In this document: positions 18,816 to 29,405 of the stretch, piece by piece
How the letters are laid out: the number at the start of each line of letters is the position of its first letter
Numbering within the stretch: the stretch's first letter is position 1
Source: Chloroflexota bacterium
GTDB lineage: Bacteria > Chloroflexota > Anaerolineae > UBA4142
DNA length: 64,000 nucleotides
Direction: 5' to 3'
NCBI GenBank assembly: GCA_016215025.1
Contig: JACRMI010000025.1
Coordinates: 1 to 64,000 of the forward strand
Notes under the pieces: model-generated
What the model was told of the DNA's origin: nothing
Databases searched by the model: none
What the model saw: the letters and a program-made list of their open reading frames with translations, nothing else
Program-made: the position numbers and the translations under genes

Positions 18816-20723
18816 TTATTTTTTCTGACTTGTTAACTCTTCCAATCGATCCACATAACGCGCAAAGACGCCGAACGTGGTTTCGACCGGCGCAGGTGTA
18901 GTGAGATCGACTCCGGCTTGTTTCAGAATGCTGAGCGGGAAATCCGAGCCGCCGGATTTCAAAAAGCCAAGATATTTTTCTACCGCGCCATCCTTGCCCG
19001 CCAAAATATTTTCCGATAGCGCATGAGCGGCAGAAATTCCAGTGGCGTATTGGTACACGTAGAAATTCGAATAGAGATGCGTGGGGAATTGCGCCCACGT
19101 GATGCCCACGCGCTCGCGGTCGATCACCACGTCGCTGCCGTACGCTTCGCTGAACAAATCGGCAAGCAGATCGGTCATGTTCTGCGCGGTCAACGCCTGT
19201 CCGCGTTCGATGCGCTCGTGGATTTCAAGTTCAAAGCGGGCGAGGGTTGGCATGATGAAAAAGTAACGATGAAAATTCGACATCGCTTCTTCGATCACGG
19301 CAATCTCGAAATCCGCTGCTGTCATTGCGAGGAGCGGTGTTTGCGACGAAGCAATCCCCAACGTAGATGGAGATTGCTTCGTTGCTTCGCTTCTCGCAAT
19401 GACATTTGCGTTCTTCAACAGATACGCTCGCACCATCGCTTGATTGAAATTCGAGGCGGTCTCGGCGAGAAATAGTCCATAGTAGCGATACACAAATGGC
19501 TGGGTCTTTTGCGTGAAATATTTGTGCATCGAGTGACCCAGCTCGTGCGCAAGTGTGCTCATCGAAAATAGATCGTCGTTGTAACTCATCAGAATGAACG
19601 GCTGCGTTCCAGGCACGCCCGTCGAGAACGCACCCGCGCGTTTGCCTTTGTTCGGATAAATGTCCACCCAACGTTGTTCCAAACATCCACGACGCAATGT
19701 CCTGACATATTCTTCACCCAACGGTTGCATCCCCGCGCAAATCCAATCGACCGCTTGCGTGAACTCGACGCGCGGTTCTGCATTGGTCAAAGGCGCTTTT
19801 TCGTCATAGATCTGCAGCGTATCATAGCCAAGCGCGCGCTTGCGAATCTTCCAGTAGCGATGCCAGGTGGGCAGATTGGCGCGAAAGGTTTTGATGAGAT
19901 TGTGGAACACGTCGAGTGGAATGTGATTCGGCGCAAGCGCGGCTTCCAGCGACGATTCGTATTTGCGTGCGCGCATTCTGAACACGTCTTGCTTGACGCC
20001 GGACGCAAGCGCGTTTGCCATGGTGTTCTTGTGCGCGAGGTACGCATCGGCGTAATTTTCGAACGCGGTGTGGCGAACAGTGCGGTCGGGATGCGTGCGT
20101 AGCGCGCCTATCGATCCTTGCGTGATTTCAAATGTGTCACCCGCATCGTTAGACGCAGGCGTAGGTTTCAAATCGGCGTCGGCAAGAACGCCGTGCGTGG
20201 CCGCCGCCGTGCGAAACGCGTCATTGACCTGGCTCAAGAGTTCTTCGACCTCGGCGGAACGCACGTGCGCGGCGCGCTGCTCCAATCGATCAACGTAATG
20301 CGCGTAGATGGCAAGGCGCGGCTCGGATTCGGCGTCCACCGTCCACGCGCGCAATTTGTCGAAACCGATGGCGAGCAACTCCGGTTCGGCGAACGACATT
20401 GCAGCGCCGACGCGCGCCGCCAGTCCACGCGCGCGATCGTTGAGTGCCGCCGCTGCTTGATCGGTTGTATCGACTGTGTGCTTCATGCTGGCGTAAAGCA
20501 CAACCTTGCCCGCGCGAAATTCAATCGCTTCGCTCGCGGCGAAAAAATCGGCGAGCATTGTTGCGTTGTCGGCAAGGTGTCCGCGGAAGCGCACAAGCGA
20601 TGATAGGTCGTTGCCGACGGCGTTGAATTCATTTTCCCAAGCGGCATCGTTAGGAAAAATCGATTCGGCGTTCCAAGTGTGTGCGAGGGGAATGTCTTGG
20701 CGAAGCTGCACAAAATTTGACAT
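18816..20723 (-). CDS. pepF: M3 family oligoendopeptidase F
   Basis: [71 protein letters not shown] (MSNFVQL) at 20723. Confidence 0.93.
19321..19403. repeat. Family A palindromic repeat inside the pepF CDS, reading frame preserved
   Basis: GTCATTGCGAG...CTCGCAATGAC; adds [29 protein letters not shown] to PepF. Confidence 0.88.
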
Positions 20724-20755
20724 TATTATTTTCTCCCGATCAAAAATTCGCATTT

Positions 20756-20818
20756 TACCACGAAGACACCAAGACACAAAGAAATTAATCCTTTGTGTCT
20801 TCGTGCCTTGGTGGTTAA
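20756..20818. repeat. Palindromic repeat, family G (ACCACGAAGACACCAAGACACAAAG...CTTTGTGTCTTCGTGCCTTGGTGGT)
   Basis: Inverted repeat; related half-site ccacagaggacacagagagcacagag near 18748. Confidence 0.75.
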
Positions 20819-24429: not shown

Positions 24430-24436
24430 TGAAAAA

Positions 24437-24471
24437 GACCTGACAGGTTTCCAGAAACCTGTCAGGTCTTT
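24437..24471. terminator. Bidirectional hairpin between convergent genes; also a family B repeat (GACCTGACAGGTTT..AAACCTGTCAGGTC)
   Basis: aaaaagacctgacaggtttccagaaacctgtcaggtctttt, perfect long stem with A and T tracts. Confidence 0.8.
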
Positions 24472-24476
24472 TGTAT

Positions 24477-25136
24477 TTATGGTTTCTTGACCCACTGACA
24501 ATTGCCCCAGTCGCCTTTTTTGACGAACACAATGCCGAGGTTGTACACCTGCCCAACATACGTCACGTTATTGTGGGTAAATTCAAATTCATCGGTCTGC
24601 GGATAGCCAAGATTTTTCGTTTCGGCGAATTTGTAGAGAGCGCCGTCGGTGTTGATCGGCATCCATGTTAGTTTCTTTGCGGCGGTAATCGCGGCAGTCG
24701 ATGCATCGGTGGGTTGAGGTTGCGTGCCGCCACCGCTTGACTTGGCAAAGGTCAAAAGATAGTTGACATGATGCTTTTCCGGCAGCCCCATCCCGGTGAC
24801 CAGGTCGCTCTTGCCCTGGTCTTCGACATACGCAAAATAGGGACCATTCAACAGCGTAATGTCGAGATTGGCAAACATCGGATAATTCGCTTGCCCGTTC
24901 GCATCGGTTTGCATTTTGGCAGGTTTGTGCGGATCGGAGGGGTCTTGCGGATAATCGACCACGCACGTCACGCCCGGCATGGGCTTGCCCGCGCTGTCGA
25001 GTACCGTGAAGAAAATGTGATGTTGCCCCCCGGACTGTTGGTCGTCTTGATACTGCACGACAGTCAAATCCCAGGTTGCGTTCGCCGTTTCTTTTGCGAC
25101 GATGCCCAACTTGGTCAGACGTGGATCGAATTGCAT
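24477..25136 (-). CDS. Ig-like/carbohydrate-binding-like domain + shared C-terminal YPQTDEF module
   Basis: MQFDPRLTKLGIVAKETANATWDLTVVQYQ...SAGKPMPGVTCVVDYP... + C-terminal AAKKLTWMPINTDGALYKFAETKNLGYPQTDEFEF...YVGQVYNLGIVFVKKGDWGN. Confidence 0.75.
   Translation of the reverse strand: MQFDPRLTKLGIVAKETANATWDLTVVQYQDDQQSGGQHHIFFTVLDSAGKPMPGVTCVVDYPQDPSDPHKPAKMQTDANGQANYPMFANLDITLLNGPYFAYVEDQGKSDLVTGMGLPEKHHVNYLLTFAKSSGGGTQPQPTDASTAAITAAKKLTWMPINTDGALYKFAETKNLGYPQTDEFEFTHNNVTYVGQVYNLGIVFVKKGDWGNCQWVKKP
24480..24695 (-). repeat. Shared C-terminal module, copy A (72 aa)
   Basis: AAITAAKKLTWMPINTDGALYKFAETKNLGYPQTDEFEFTHNNVTYVGQVYNLGIVFVKKGDWGNCQWVKKP. Confidence 0.9.
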
Positions 25137-25194
25137 GGTTTCCTCCGGGTAGAGCAAATTTCCAATTTGCCAATGGTCAAATTGGAAATTTGTC

Positions 25195-25971
25195 CTACAT
25201 TGGTTTCTTCATCCAAAGCACATTACCCCAATCGCCTTTTTTGACAAAGACAATGCCGAGATTGTAGACCTGTCCCACGTAGGTTGCGCCTCCGCTGGTA
25301 AATTCATATTCATCCGTCTGCGGATATCCCAGGTTTTGCGCTTCTGCGAAATTGTAGAGCGCGCTGTCGGTATTGATCGGCATCCAAGTCAATTTGCGTG
25401 CCGCCTGAATCGCCGCGGCATCTGCGACAATGCGATCCCATTCGACATTAGGACCGGGGCAACTTGGTTTATCGACCGGATCGATTTCAAAGTGACCCAC
25501 CAAGGTCCGATGCGCGACGTACGTCAATTGAAATTGATCGGAGAGCCAAAGCTGCAGGCGCATGTTCGCATCGTACATGTCGCTCGTCCACTTGTCTTGC
25601 GGCATGCCTTCGTGTTCGATGCTGACGGTGTACCAATTGGGATTGTCGGGCGGGGTGAGGTCTTGCCACGATGGCTGCACAATATTGTTATGCGGACAAA
25701 TCCACTGTTGGTTTTGAGCATCCCAGCGCAAACCATTGGCAAATGCCGTGTCATTCACCGAAACGTACTGCTCAATGGTGCCATTCTTACCGATACAAAA
25801 GTGGGCGGAGGCACCGCGCGTTGGATCGTTGAAGGTTGGAAAAACGCCGGGCAGATTTCCAGCGGCGATGTGCAGCACGACCGCTTTGACCGGTCTGCCG
25901 TTGCGTCCCTTCATGAAATTATCTGCGACGATCGGTCGCTTGGTTGCGAATGGACACCAATCGATTGCCAT
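25195..25971 (-). CDS. N-acetylmuramoyl-L-alanine amidase (Amidase_2-like) + shared C-terminal YPQTDEF module
   Basis: VVLHIAAGNLPGVFPTFNDPTRGASAHFCIGKNGTIEQYVSVNDTAFANG, YTVSIEHEG, HRTLVGHFEIDPVDKPSCPGP, plus module; no signal peptide. Confidence 0.88.
   Translation of the reverse strand: MAIDWCPFATKRPIVADNFMKGRNGRPVKAVVLHIAAGNLPGVFPTFNDPTRGASAHFCIGKNGTIEQYVSVNDTAFANGLRWDAQNQQWICPHNNIVQPSWQDLTPPDNPNWYTVSIEHEGMPQDKWTSDMYDANMRLQLWLSDQFQLTYVAHRTLVGHFEIDPVDKPSCPGPNVEWDRIVADAAAIQAARKLTWMPINTDSALYNFAEAQNLGYPQTDEYEFTSGGATYVGQVYNLGIVFVKKGDWGNVLWMKKPM
25198..25416 (-). repeat. Shared C-terminal module, copy B (73 aa)
   Basis: AAIQAARKLTWMPINTDSALYNFAEAQNLGYPQTDEYEFTSGGATYVGQVYNLGIVFVKKGDWGNVLWMKKPM. 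Confidence 0.9.
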
Positions 25972-26010
25972 AATGATCTCCTGTAGGGCAAACGCTTGCG
26001 CGAATTTGCC

Positions 26011-27099
26011 CTACGTCGGTTTCTTCATCCAAAGCACGTTGCCCCAATCGCCTTTTTTGACGAAGACGATGCCGAGGTTGTAGACCTGTCCGACATATGT
26101 CGCGCCGCCACTGGTGAATTCAAACTCATCGGTCTGCGGATAACCCAGGTTTTGTTCTTCTGCAAATTTGTAGAGCGCGCCATCGGTGTTGATCGGCATC
26201 AATTTCAATTTCTTCGCCGCCGCAATCGCCGCCGAAGCGGCTGGATCGGCAATTGCGTTGATGACGACGGGCGCAGGCGCGCCGCCTTGTGCCATGTAAT
26301 CGCGAATCTGATTTGCATTCGCTATGCCAAACGAGCCGCGCTTGCCCCAGGGCGATGTGGCGAAAATTGCCGCGCCGATTACGTAATCGTCCTTTTGCAT
26401 TTCTTTATCGTACCAACTCAACGTCGCTACGTAACCGGCTTCGTCGGTGTAAAACGTCCAGCCTTGCTGCGCATCATTTGGATCGGGCAGAACGCCGCCA
26501 TCGATGCCGGTTTCGGTGATGACGACTTGCTTGCGCGCATCGGGTGGCAATGCATCTATCGCGCGTCGATAGCGCAAGCAGAGCCACGACGAATTCTGCT
26601 CCATCGTTCGCGCGCTGTACTCGTGGAGCGAAAGCAGATCGCAATGCCGCAATCCTTCCGCGAGTGCAGGCCAATATTCGAGTTCGGGGTTGCCGGTGGC
26701 GAAGGAGTACGCGCACGAAACGAGCTTCGCGTCGCGCATCAAATCGCCCCAGCGCACGTGGAAACGCGAGAGTGCCTGCGCTGCCTCGTTCGACTGGACC
26801 ACCGATTCATTGTAACCCATCCACGCATCGTAGATGCCGCGCATCTTTTCGGCATCTGGTTTCATGCGTTGAAAAAATTGTTCGGCGCGACTCTCTGGGT
26901 TATCGATAAAAATCTGTTCGCCATCGTCGACGTAATGACGACCGATGACGAAGGTGTTCGGTGAAACTTGCTTGAGCTGACGCCACATATCGGCGTTGTG
27001 ATCCATCGAGAGGGCGATGCGTGGCTGCGCGCGTTTAAAATAATCGACGGCGTCAAAACCGCCGAAGGTAATGATGTAGACACCGAGTTTGGATTTCAT
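26011..27099 (-). CDS. Glycoside hydrolase clan GH-A-like protein + shared C-terminal YPQTDEF module
   Basis: DAWMGYNESVVQS (NE-type acid/base), LSLHEYSARTM, KQVVITETGIDGG (nucleophile-like E), plus module; no signal peptide. Confidence 0.75.
   Translation of the reverse strand: MKSKLGVYIITFGGFDAVDYFKRAQPRIALSMDHNADMWRQLKQVSPNTFVIGRHYVDDGEQIFIDNPESRAEQFFQRMKPDAEKMRGIYDAWMGYNESVVQSNEAAQALSRFHVRWGDLMRDAKLVSCAYSFATGNPELEYWPALAEGLRHCDLLSLHEYSARTMEQNSSWLCLRYRRAIDALPPDARKQVVITETGIDGGVLPDPNDAQQGWTFYTDEAGYVATLSWYDKEMQKDDYVIGAAIFATSPWGKRGSFGIANANQIRDYMAQGGAPAPVVINAIADPAASAAIAAAKKLKLMPINTDGALYKFAEEQNLGYPQTDEFEFTSGGATYVGQVYNLGIVFVKKGDWGNVLWMKKPT
26014..26232 (-). repeat. Shared C-terminal module, copy C (73 aa)
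   Basis: AAIAAAKKLKLMPINTDGALYKFAEEQNLGYPQTDEFEFTSGGATYVGQVYNLGIVFVKKGDWGNVLWMKKPT. Confidence 0.9.
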
Positions 27100-27170
27100 G
27101 GATGCGCTTTCTCCCTCTCCTGTTCGACGGTCGCGAAGCGTGTCGAACGGGAGAGGGTTGGGGTGAGGGC

Positions 27171-28418
27171 TTACATTCCGGCTGGCTTGTTCACAAACTT
27201 GACGTTGCCCCAGTCGCCTTTTTTGACGTAGACAATGCCGAGATTGTAAACTTGACCGACATAGGCATCCGTTCCGACGAGAAATTCAAATTCGTCGGTC
27301 TGCGGATAACCCAGGTTTTTGTTCAGCGCAAATTTGTAGAGCGCGCCATCCGTGTTGATCGGCATCCATTTTAGTTTTTTCGCCGCCGCCAAGGCAGCGA
27401 TTGACCTGGGATCGTTTGCAGGCAACGGTTGTGGAGGCGGCGGAGGTGGCGGAGGCGTTGGCGTTGTCCAGCGCACCTTGTAATTGTTTTGCAACGCTGC
27501 TTGAAAATCGGCTTTGATGCCATTCTTATCGGAAATGCTCCACAGCGCGTTGCCGGTTTGCCAGCGAAAAAGACACAGGGCTTGAATCGGCTGATTCGCG
27601 GTGACGGCATTCCAATCGTTGATCTCTTTGAACGCCGCTTGCACCCAACCAATGTTGCGATCTTGCCACCAATCGGGATCGGCAGGTTGGGTCTCAGTGA
27701 TAAATACCGGCGCTGTTCGCAACGACGTTGGAATCACAGCCATGAAATCGCGATAGGTGCGAAAGTGTTTGCGATACGCGCCAAACGGTGCGCCCATTTT
27801 TTCTTCGCTGGTGATGAAGGCTGCATCCATCCCATGCGTGTAGGTGTGAATCGCAATTGAGTCCGGCGGAGCTTGGCGCGCGATGCATTGATTCAGCGTG
27901 TCTTTGAAATATTGCACCCAATCGCCGTTGGCGTTACCGGCGTACGTCGTTTGATTGTTCCAGGGCGCGGGCGCAGAGGGGACGACCCAGTCGAGGTTAT
28001 GCCCAGGCAATTTTTTGATCGCCGCGCGAACCTTGGCAAAGCATTGCGCGTACAACGTTGGTGTGATCACCTCGCCGCCTTGTCCGCCGCTGTTGCCCGG
28101 ACGTTCCCAGGGGCTGTTTGTTTCGTTGCCAATGACCCAAACCTTGACGCCGTTGGATCCGGCGACAAAACTCGCGCACTGTTGCGCAAACTGATCATAC
28201 TGAGAGGAGTTGGGAATGGTACCGGCGTCGTTGTAGCCGTTGTTCAATCGAACAATGACGCCAAAACCCTGATTGGCTAAACCCGAAAAATCGCCTGATT
28301 GGTCAGGGGGATTGACCTGGACGGAGACGAAAATCCATCCGGGCTTGTTCGCGTTGAGGAAGAGTTGTTCGGCACCGGGGTCATGCATGCCGAAGATGTA
28401 CGAAGGGAACTGGGGCAT
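27171..28418 (-). CDS. Glycoside hydrolase-like (clan GH-A-like) protein + Pro-rich linker + shared C-terminal YPQTDEF module
   Basis: VKVWVIGNETNSPWERP, SIAIHTYTHG, APVFITETQPADPDWW, TPTPPPPPPPPQPLP linker, then module; RBS gaggagat before ATG. Confidence 0.8.
   Translation of the reverse strand: MPQFPSYIFGMHDPGAEQLFLNANKPGWIFVSVQVNPPDQSGDFSGLANQGFGVIVRLNNGYNDAGTIPNSSQYDQFAQQCASFVAGSNGVKVWVIGNETNSPWERPGNSGGQGGEVITPTLYAQCFAKVRAAIKKLPGHNLDWVVPSAPAPWNNQTTYAGNANGDWVQYFKDTLNQCIARQAPPDSIAIHTYTHGMDAAFITSEEKMGAPFGAYRKHFRTYRDFMAVIPTSLRTAPVFITETQPADPDWWQDRNIGWVQAAFKEINDWNAVTANQPIQALCLFRWQTGNALWSISDKNGIKADFQAALQNNYKVRWTTPTPPPPPPPPQPLPANDPRSIAALAAAKKLKWMPINTDGALYKFALNKNLGYPQTDEFEFLVGTDAYVGQVYNLGIVYVKKGDWGNVKFVNKPAGM
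27174..27398 (-). repeat. Shared C-terminal module, copy D (75 aa)
   Basis: AALAAAKKLKWMPINTDGALYKFALNKNLGYPQTDEFEFLVGTDAYVGQVYNLGIVYVKKGDWGNVKFVNKPAGM. Confidence 0.9.
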
Positions 28419-28476
28419 TGCGTTATCTCCTCGTAAGGCGGGAATCGTAGTGTTTATGGTCGATCAGATTGATTCG

Positions 28477-28505
28477 ATTTTAATGCGAGACAGGGTGAGT
28501 GTCAA
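28477..28505 (-). promoter_or_regulatory. Putative strong sigma70 promoter for the four-gene shared-module operon (TTGACA-17-TAAAAT)
   Basis: Minus strand ttgaca ctcaccctgtctcgcat taaaat, upstream of ATG 28418. Confidence 0.75.
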
Positions 28506-28521
28506 GAGGGATTCAAAAACC

Positions 28522-28554
28522 AAGCCCGCCAGGGGCGTCCATCCTGGCGGGCTT
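28522..28554 (-). terminator. Rho-independent terminator of the LysM-cupredoxin gene
   Basis: AAGCCCGCCAGG atggacgcc CCTGGCGGGCTT ggttttt on the minus strand. Confidence 0.8.
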
Positions 28555-28571: not shown

Positions 28572-29405
28572 CTACTGCGTCACGACGACGATGCCCGTCA
28601 TCGTGGTCGGATGAATGCGGCAATAGTATCCAAAGGTGCCGGGCGTCGTAAATGTAAATTGAAACGTCTGTCCTGGGTTCATCGCACCCGAATCGAACAT
28701 ATTGGATGGCGCGTTGGGCGCGCCGCTCGTTACGGTGTGCTCCATTCCATTCGTTTCAGTATTGCGCCAAACAACGGTCGTGCCAACTTTGACAGTGATC
28801 GATTGCGGACTGTATACCGTGTTTTGCATGGTAACATTTGCCGTGTCAGGTCTCGGCGTTGGCGTTGGTCCCGGTATCGATGTGGGAAAGGGTTGCGGCG
28901 ATGGATAACCAGAAGGAATGATCAATCGCATCCCGGCGAAAATCAAATTGGGATTCGGAATGTGGTTTGCAATCATCAACGCATAGACCGAAGTACGGAA
29001 GCGTAACGCGATGCGCGTTAACGTATCGCCAAATTGCACGATGTAGGTCCCGTGCGGCGATGGTGGGACATAACCGCCCGGAATGAATAGAACCATTCCG
29101 ACGAAGATGTAATTTGGATTGAAGATGCGATTGACGCTCATCAATGCATTCACCGAAACGCCAAAGCGACGTGCGATACCGTATAGCGTATCGCCCGGCT
29201 GCACGACGTATCGCGACAGTGTACCGGAACTCGACGGTGCATATTGCCCCGGCATGAACATTGGCTGAACGTTGGGCATGAATCCACCGGGGTTGCCGTA
29301 TGGTCCTTGAGCCAGGGTGGTCGTTGGCACGAAGACGACGAGCAGCGCAAAAACAAACGCCGCGATGAGAACACACGGCGAGAAATTGACAAGTCTTGCT
29401 TTCAT
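28572..29405 (-). CDS. Secreted protein: two LysM domains + plastocyanin-like cupredoxin
   Basis: Signal peptide MKARLVNFSPCVLIAAFVFALLVVFVPTTTLAQG; LysM YVVQPGDTLYGIARRFGVSVNALMSVNRIFNPNYIFVGMVLFIP and YIVQFGDTLTRIALRF...; cupredoxin ligands EHTVTSG...YYCRIHPTTM. Confidence 0.92.
   Translation of the reverse strand: MKARLVNFSPCVLIAAFVFALLVVFVPTTTLAQGPYGNPGGFMPNVQPMFMPGQYAPSSSGTLSRYVVQPGDTLYGIARRFGVSVNALMSVNRIFNPNYIFVGMVLFIPGGYVPPSPHGTYIVQFGDTLTRIALRFRTSVYALMIANHIPNPNLIFAGMRLIIPSGYPSPQPFPTSIPGPTPTPRPDTANVTMQNTVYSPQSITVKVGTTVVWRNTETNGMEHTVTSGAPNAPSNMFDSGAMNPGQTFQFTFTTPGTFGYYCRIHPTTMTGIVVVTQ

Follow-up and report, generated by a model that had tools for sequence, protein, structure and literature searches.

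The window analyzed here is a 64,000-nucleotide stretch from a Chloroflexota bacterium of the class Anaerolineae (contig JACRMI010000025.1, positions 1 to 64,000 of the forward strand). Four consecutive minus-strand open reading frames (ORFs) at 24477-28418 each end in a common module, as an original prediction made from the DNA letters had claimed. In this study, we examined these four genes, the nature of their module, and the kind of system that they may form. The genes are as follows.

27171..28418, minus strand: gene 1, 415 residues; predicted glycoside hydrolase (GH) clan A (beta/alpha)8 barrel, proline-rich linker, and module
26011..27099, minus strand: gene 2, 362 residues; putative GH clan A-type domain (NE and ITETG motifs) and module
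25195..25971, minus strand: gene 3, 258 residues; Amidase_2 N-acetylmuramoyl-L-alanine amidase and module
24477..25136, minus strand: gene 4, 219 residues; predicted transthyretin/immunoglobulin (Ig)-like beta-sandwich and module

The barrel modeled for gene 1 had a mean predicted local distance difference test (pLDDT) score of 86.6, and its closest solved structures were mostly clan A glycosidases (GH26, GH128, GH53, and GH5). It shares the barrel fold and the two catalytic Glu residues with these families, whereas it has no Pfam family match and about 8-17% identity to the solved structures. The catalytic-type residues Glu99 (IGNE; Asn98-Glu99) and Glu242 (ITETQ) were invariant in 16/16 sequences. 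With a TIM barrel, an acid/base Glu after Asn, and a nucleophile Glu near strand 7, as placed in the model, the N-terminal domain of gene 1 is predicted to be a GH clan A-type glycosidase. Gene 2 was assigned to the same type from sequence alone, by its NE and ITETG motifs and its remote similarity to gene 1; hhalign aligned the two N-terminal domains with an E value of 1.3e-6 and a score of 51.9 (72 columns), compared with 29.4 or less in 20 shuffles. These two domains therefore appear to be remotely homologous, and the earlier description of the four N-termini as unrelated does not hold for this pair. Gene 3 matched Pfam Amidase_2 (E value 4e-16) as well as endolysin PHROGs, and its expected zinc ligands, His34, His160, and Cys171, were invariant in nine sequences. 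For gene 4, the predicted beta-sandwich has a transthyretin/Ig-like shape, a resemblance at the fold level only. When its model was used as a Foldseek query, the sandwich domain dominated the matches, and no match of the module to a solved LGFP chain was obtained. The domain types originally proposed (two GH clan A-like proteins, an Amidase_2, and an Ig-like domain) were thereby upheld, with that of gene 2 putative, from its motifs and remote homology.

The modules lie at the following positions; for genes 1 and 4, the modeled elements are given.

27183..27398, minus strand: LGFP-like module of gene 1; modeled helix 359-366 and strands 377-381, 384-391, 394-399, and 407-410
26014..26232, minus strand: LGFP-like module of gene 2
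25201..25416, minus strand: LGFP-like module of gene 3
24480..24695, minus strand: LGFP-like module of gene 4; modeled helix 166-173 and strands 184-188, 191-198, 201-206, and 214-217

The gene 2 module was 79, 89, and 83% identical at the protein level to those of genes 1, 3, and 4, respectively (78-88% in the alignment). All four proteins share one module, but "almost identical," as it was first called, is a little strong for 78-89% protein identity. At the DNA level, the modules were 80-85% identical; the similarity begins sharply at their 5' boundary and, between genes 2 and 3, extends 8 nt beyond the stop codon. A module tree of low resolution (63 columns) placed genes 2, 3, and 4 in a supported clade (98/87), whereas in a second family of the order the modules clustered by partner domain. 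For the lineage of the window, this pattern fits an operon within which modules were copied or underwent gene conversion; for the second family, it fits vertical descent. The duplication or shuffling that had been suggested from codon similarity is thus supported as duplication or homogenization. Contig 46 of the same genome holds a fifth, diverged module (L053:3192-3443), an almost stand-alone ORF of 84 residues with extra cysteines.

Direct searches of the window proteins against Pfam, PHROG, and NCBIfam gave no family match for the module. Among Pfam leads for 26 diverse members, LGFP was the commonest (3 members, best single-module E value 0.011) although below threshold, and the Pfam LGFP model also touched the modules of relatives below its cut-off. 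A SWIB identity was dropped (two members, E value 0.044), matches of a module profile to the sequences of solved structures, namely, designed repeats and SWIB, were spurious, and a broad module alignment (A1) was too divergent for the collection scan. We then used an independent LGFP profile for which only phage lysins were taken, ten in number, from phages of Gordonia, Rhodococcus, and Nocardia. Over 2,289 ORFs, this profile gave 55 matches, of which 50 were module ORFs, and 55 of the 63 domain matches within those 50 ORFs fell inside the module. A comparison of the module with the LGFP profile by hhalign scored 27.2 (E value 7e-6), compared with 15.2 or less for 60 column shuffles and 16.0 for the reversed LGFP profile. 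In addition, the models of genes 1 and 4 agreed on the module, with a helix and a four-stranded sheet in both (pLDDT about 66-91), and this predicted topology is that described for MytA-type LGFP domains, which bind peptidoglycan-arabinogalactan in pull-downs (PMC11299179). The LG-x-P motif occurs as LGYP, LGNP, or LGSP in the window and in most relatives; the second family has LQDQ instead. These results suggest a divergent LGFP-like domain of the wall-binding type, with wall binding itself as the putative function. Because its matches stayed below the cut-off, we call it LGFP-like and keep it outside PF08310. LGFP was among the wall-binding folds with which a comparison had been suggested; the counter-case of an already described wall-binding family with known export holds as far as relationship to LGFP goes, but the matches fall short of the cut-off, and no route of export is known.

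The module was carried by 45 of 199 related genomes, including all those sampled in the family of the window (14/14, its own genome counted) and in the next family of the order (6/6). All named matches were to Chloroflexota, mostly metagenome-assembled genomes of Anaerolineae. In this class, nearly every copy sits at the C-terminus of a GH, amidase, M23, or Ig-like protein; the genes are arranged as an operon in some relatives and scattered in others, and in the second family they are scattered among housekeeping genes, each still with its module. Fused chains combine GH, amidase, and two to four modules (L039, L045, and L048) or amidase, module, Ig domain, and module, with one module copy internal (L038), and an M23 peptidase with the module joins the set in L056, L061, and L066. 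Because of these fusions and the shared module, the products probably act together, which agrees with the original view of one modular envelope-hydrolase system. In other Chloroflexota families (L163-L168 and L170, which include single-contig chromosomes), an Amidase_2 domain is accompanied by three LGFP-like repeats and often by a second Amidase_2, with no evident signal; the repeats follow one amidase, lie between two amidase domains, or precede M23, and the neighbors were chromosomal and non-phage in the examples looked at.

An export signal of the type IX kind, which sends its cargo through an unknown Chloroflexota machine, might also explain why one C-terminal domain is shared by signal-less proteins of very diverse types and is retained from family to family. 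We consider this unlikely. A type IX-like export domain would be strictly C-terminal, whereas the module occurs internally (L038), in tandem in the fused chains, between two amidase domains, and N-terminal to M23. It is also carried by a GH99 protein whose Sec-type signal is clear (L074) and by a type II membrane-anchored protein (L064), where the signal and the anchor place it outside the cell membrane, and it resembles LGFP wall-binding repeats. Owing to the tandem and internal copies in other Chloroflexota families, the module appears to be a binding repeat rather than an obligate C-terminal tag. To the earlier question of whether it always sits at the C-terminus, the answer is yes for most of the Anaerolineae proteins seen but no across the phylum; of the targeting, docking, or wall-attachment tag that had been proposed, the wall-targeting or wall-binding part is retained, but a delivery tag is disfavored by the same internal, tandem, Sec-signaled, and membrane-anchored copies.

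By hydropathy, none of the four proteins or about 70 homologues had a signal-like N-terminus; the highest 12-residue hydropathy among the homologues was about 2.4, whereas two controls with a signal reached 2.8 and 3.3. None of the four ORFs gained a signal peptide from an alternative upstream start, and the first impression that all four starts lack one was therefore upheld. The same absence would be expected of cytoplasmic enzymes for the recycling of peptidoglycan or the use of storage glycans. AmpD is a cytoplasmic Amidase_2 protein, and a weak AmpD-type similarity was found (E value 5e-11, yet far under the cut-off). We regard this explanation as improbable, since the M23 endopeptidases of the set act on the polymeric wall, every member bears LGFP-like binding repeats, and the amidase is closest to endolysins. 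The breadth of activities (glycosidases, amidase, and endopeptidase) would also suit scavenging enzymes for predation or necromass feeding that leave living cells by non-classical export and bind foreign walls. This is quite improbable in our view: no export route is known, and signals are absent in all homologues, although the neighboring LysM protein has one of the Sec type.

Phage relatives of the set were found in several places. The amidase of gene 3 resembles phage endolysins. Viral contig L130, a genuine siphophage, contains an Ig+module gene shortly after the tape-measure gene and two minor-tail/distal-tail genes, and three additional phage contigs have the Ig domain without the module, with terminase or portal genes nearby; in one of them it is fused to an endolysin-like region. 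Directly after the module gene of L130 lies an HD-GYP-like protein (L130:6226-6846; HD_5, E value 7e-44), possibly a nucleotide-signal hydrolase. A tblastn search detected no module in phage and plasmid records. Given the tail-region gene of L130 and the Ig domains in other phage contigs, the locus might be a decaying prophage or the lysis region of a phage satellite remnant, but no phage genes were recognized around it, and the bacterial loci examined have housekeeping neighbors, e.g. DNA polymerase III alpha, thymidylate synthase, and glycosyltransferases. Moreover, the set is universal in two families and its active sites are invariant. A prophage origin is disfavored by these neighbors, and we consider such a remnant a rather remote prospect. 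Sheath genes in some relatives of the class bring to mind a contractile injection system or tailocin, to which the proteins would belong as hydrolase cargo or as parts that pierce the wall. However, no sheath gene was found in the genome of the window or in most module-carrying family members and no tail genes are adjacent; for this genome, delivery by a contractile tail is unlikely, and the explanation as a whole is highly improbable.

The explanation that we favor, and hold to be probable with modest confidence, is that the chromosome carries a domesticated, vertically kept set of envelope hydrolases of the endolysin type, in which the module is the part that binds the wall. Each protein would join a catalytic or adhesive N-terminal domain to one divergent LGFP-like wall-binding domain, and the module would hold all four on the same envelope polymer for a joint attack. 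The proteins would accumulate in the cytoplasm, lacking a signal, and reach the wall only upon cell lysis or by a holin-like or other non-classical passage, as do phage lysins. The set would have building blocks in common with phage lysis and tail proteins, and the bacteria would keep the genes vertically with catalytic residues intact. An endolysin-like mode appears likeliest because wall-cutting enzymes, a module of the wall-binding type, phage relatives, and the absence of signals coincide. Signal-less proteins with a catalytic domain and a C-terminal, putatively wall-binding domain are what hydropathy and domain order give here, and the lytic delivery originally envisaged is plausible because phage relatives exist. 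The data show the anatomy, distribution, and fusions of the set, its phage relatives, its lack of signals, and its intact active sites; wall binding, joint action, exit by lysis, and the direction of phage-host exchange are points that we infer.

Several observations weigh against the endolysin-type set. No holin was identified and no lysis phenotype is known; endolysin genes are phage-borne with a holin beside them, whereas the window locus has no recognized phage neighbors, and among its relatives only L130 is in a phage. The module itself was on that one phage contig only. No module of the window reached the gathering cut-off of PF08310, and the second family has lost LG-x-P. Clan A glycosidases are unusual in lysins. 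The signal-peptide test was one of hydropathy.

A broader proposal, which we offer tentatively, is a phylum-wide, host-encoded Chloroflexota lysin system independent of prophages, in which signal-less wall hydrolases marked by one LGFP-like module would serve programmed or altruistic lysis (or leave by an unknown export route) and the modules of an operon would be kept alike by gene conversion. Lysins with LGFP repeats at the C-terminus are already known from phages of Gordonia and Rhodococcus (PMC9671378, PMC3314691); for the LGFP structure, PMC9671378 cites PDB 6SX4. In the open-access literature we found no paper linking LGFP with Chloroflexota lysins, the sole co-mention being a virome paper (PMC5017753). 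What this study adds is an LGFP-like branch, unannotated and spread across Chloroflexota, a multigene set that shares it and is kept by the host, and the systematic absence of export signals from that set. Signal-less murein hydrolases selected across whole families in the absence of a prophage would raise the question of how they reach the wall, be it by lysis as a normal trait or by an export path yet to be recognized. With the module, an LGFP-like branch that lacked annotation becomes open to searches, and the lysins and wall polymer of this phylum, whose envelopes are poorly understood, may become easier to find.

The features flanking and separating the four genes are as follows.

28477..28505, minus strand: sigma-70-like promoter upstream of gene 1, TTGACA-N17-TAAAAT, 11/12 consensus bases
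27114..27158, no strand assigned: palindrome with arms of ~14 nt, between genes 1 and 2
25983..26014, no strand assigned: palindrome with 10-nt arms, at the gene 2 stop codon
25149..25198, no strand assigned: palindrome with 21-nt arms, between genes 3 and 4
24433..24472, no strand assigned: terminator-like hairpin with an 18-bp stem, 3' of gene 4

The intergenic spacings of 71, 39, and 58 nt, the good Shine-Dalgarno sites, and the promoter, which sits just past a terminator-like hairpin (28522-28554) of a LysM/cupredoxin gene, are compatible with a single operon. The features from which one operon had been drawn do exist, but promoter-like sites in the region were not above chance (3 found, 3.4 expected from shuffles), and the hairpin at 24433-24472 may be a repeat element instead of a dedicated terminator, because 6 exact-arm copies occur genome-wide. 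Palindromes are present at all three gene junctions and at the operon end; these could be repeats akin to repetitive extragenic palindromes, serve in mRNA processing, or mark points at which modules are exchanged by recombination. The upstream neighbor (28575-29405) combines a signal of the Sec type with two LysM domains and, at the C-terminus, a cupredoxin domain, an unusual architecture for a wall-bound copper protein. Elsewhere in the window, a palindromic repeat (GTCATTGCGAGAAGCGAAGC...GCTCCTCGCAATGAC; 19310-19405, minus strand) lies inside the M3 peptidase gene at 18816-20777. It appears to be inserted in frame in this oligoendopeptidase gene, adding about 30 residues, much as Rickettsia palindromic elements do; three further sites of the genome have similar cores.

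Besides the clan A glycosidase families, three known systems invite comparison with the set. The LGFP repeat (PF08310), known from Corynebacterium PS1/MytA and actinophage lysin A, shares with the module the predicted helix and antiparallel sheet, the G-x-(I/V)-Y motif, and, in the window and most relatives but not in the second family, the LG-x-P motif, and it is likewise appended to cell-wall enzymes, often in tandem; the module differs in its length of about 63-72 residues instead of 54, in an extra C-terminal GDWGN strand, and in its single copy in most Anaerolineae proteins. Cellulosome dockerins and type IX C-terminal domains also place one C-terminal module on different enzymes, whereas for the set no scaffold or secretion machine was identified and the module can be internal or tandem. 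Modular endolysins of Gram-positive hosts, such as LysA of Gordonia phages (Ami-2A and LGFP), are also signal-less and combine an N-terminal amidase, peptidase, or glycosidase with a C-terminal wall-binding domain. By contrast, the set of the window is chromosomal and vertically kept, with no adjacent holin found, and it includes clan A glycosidases and splits its activities over four proteins that carry one common module.

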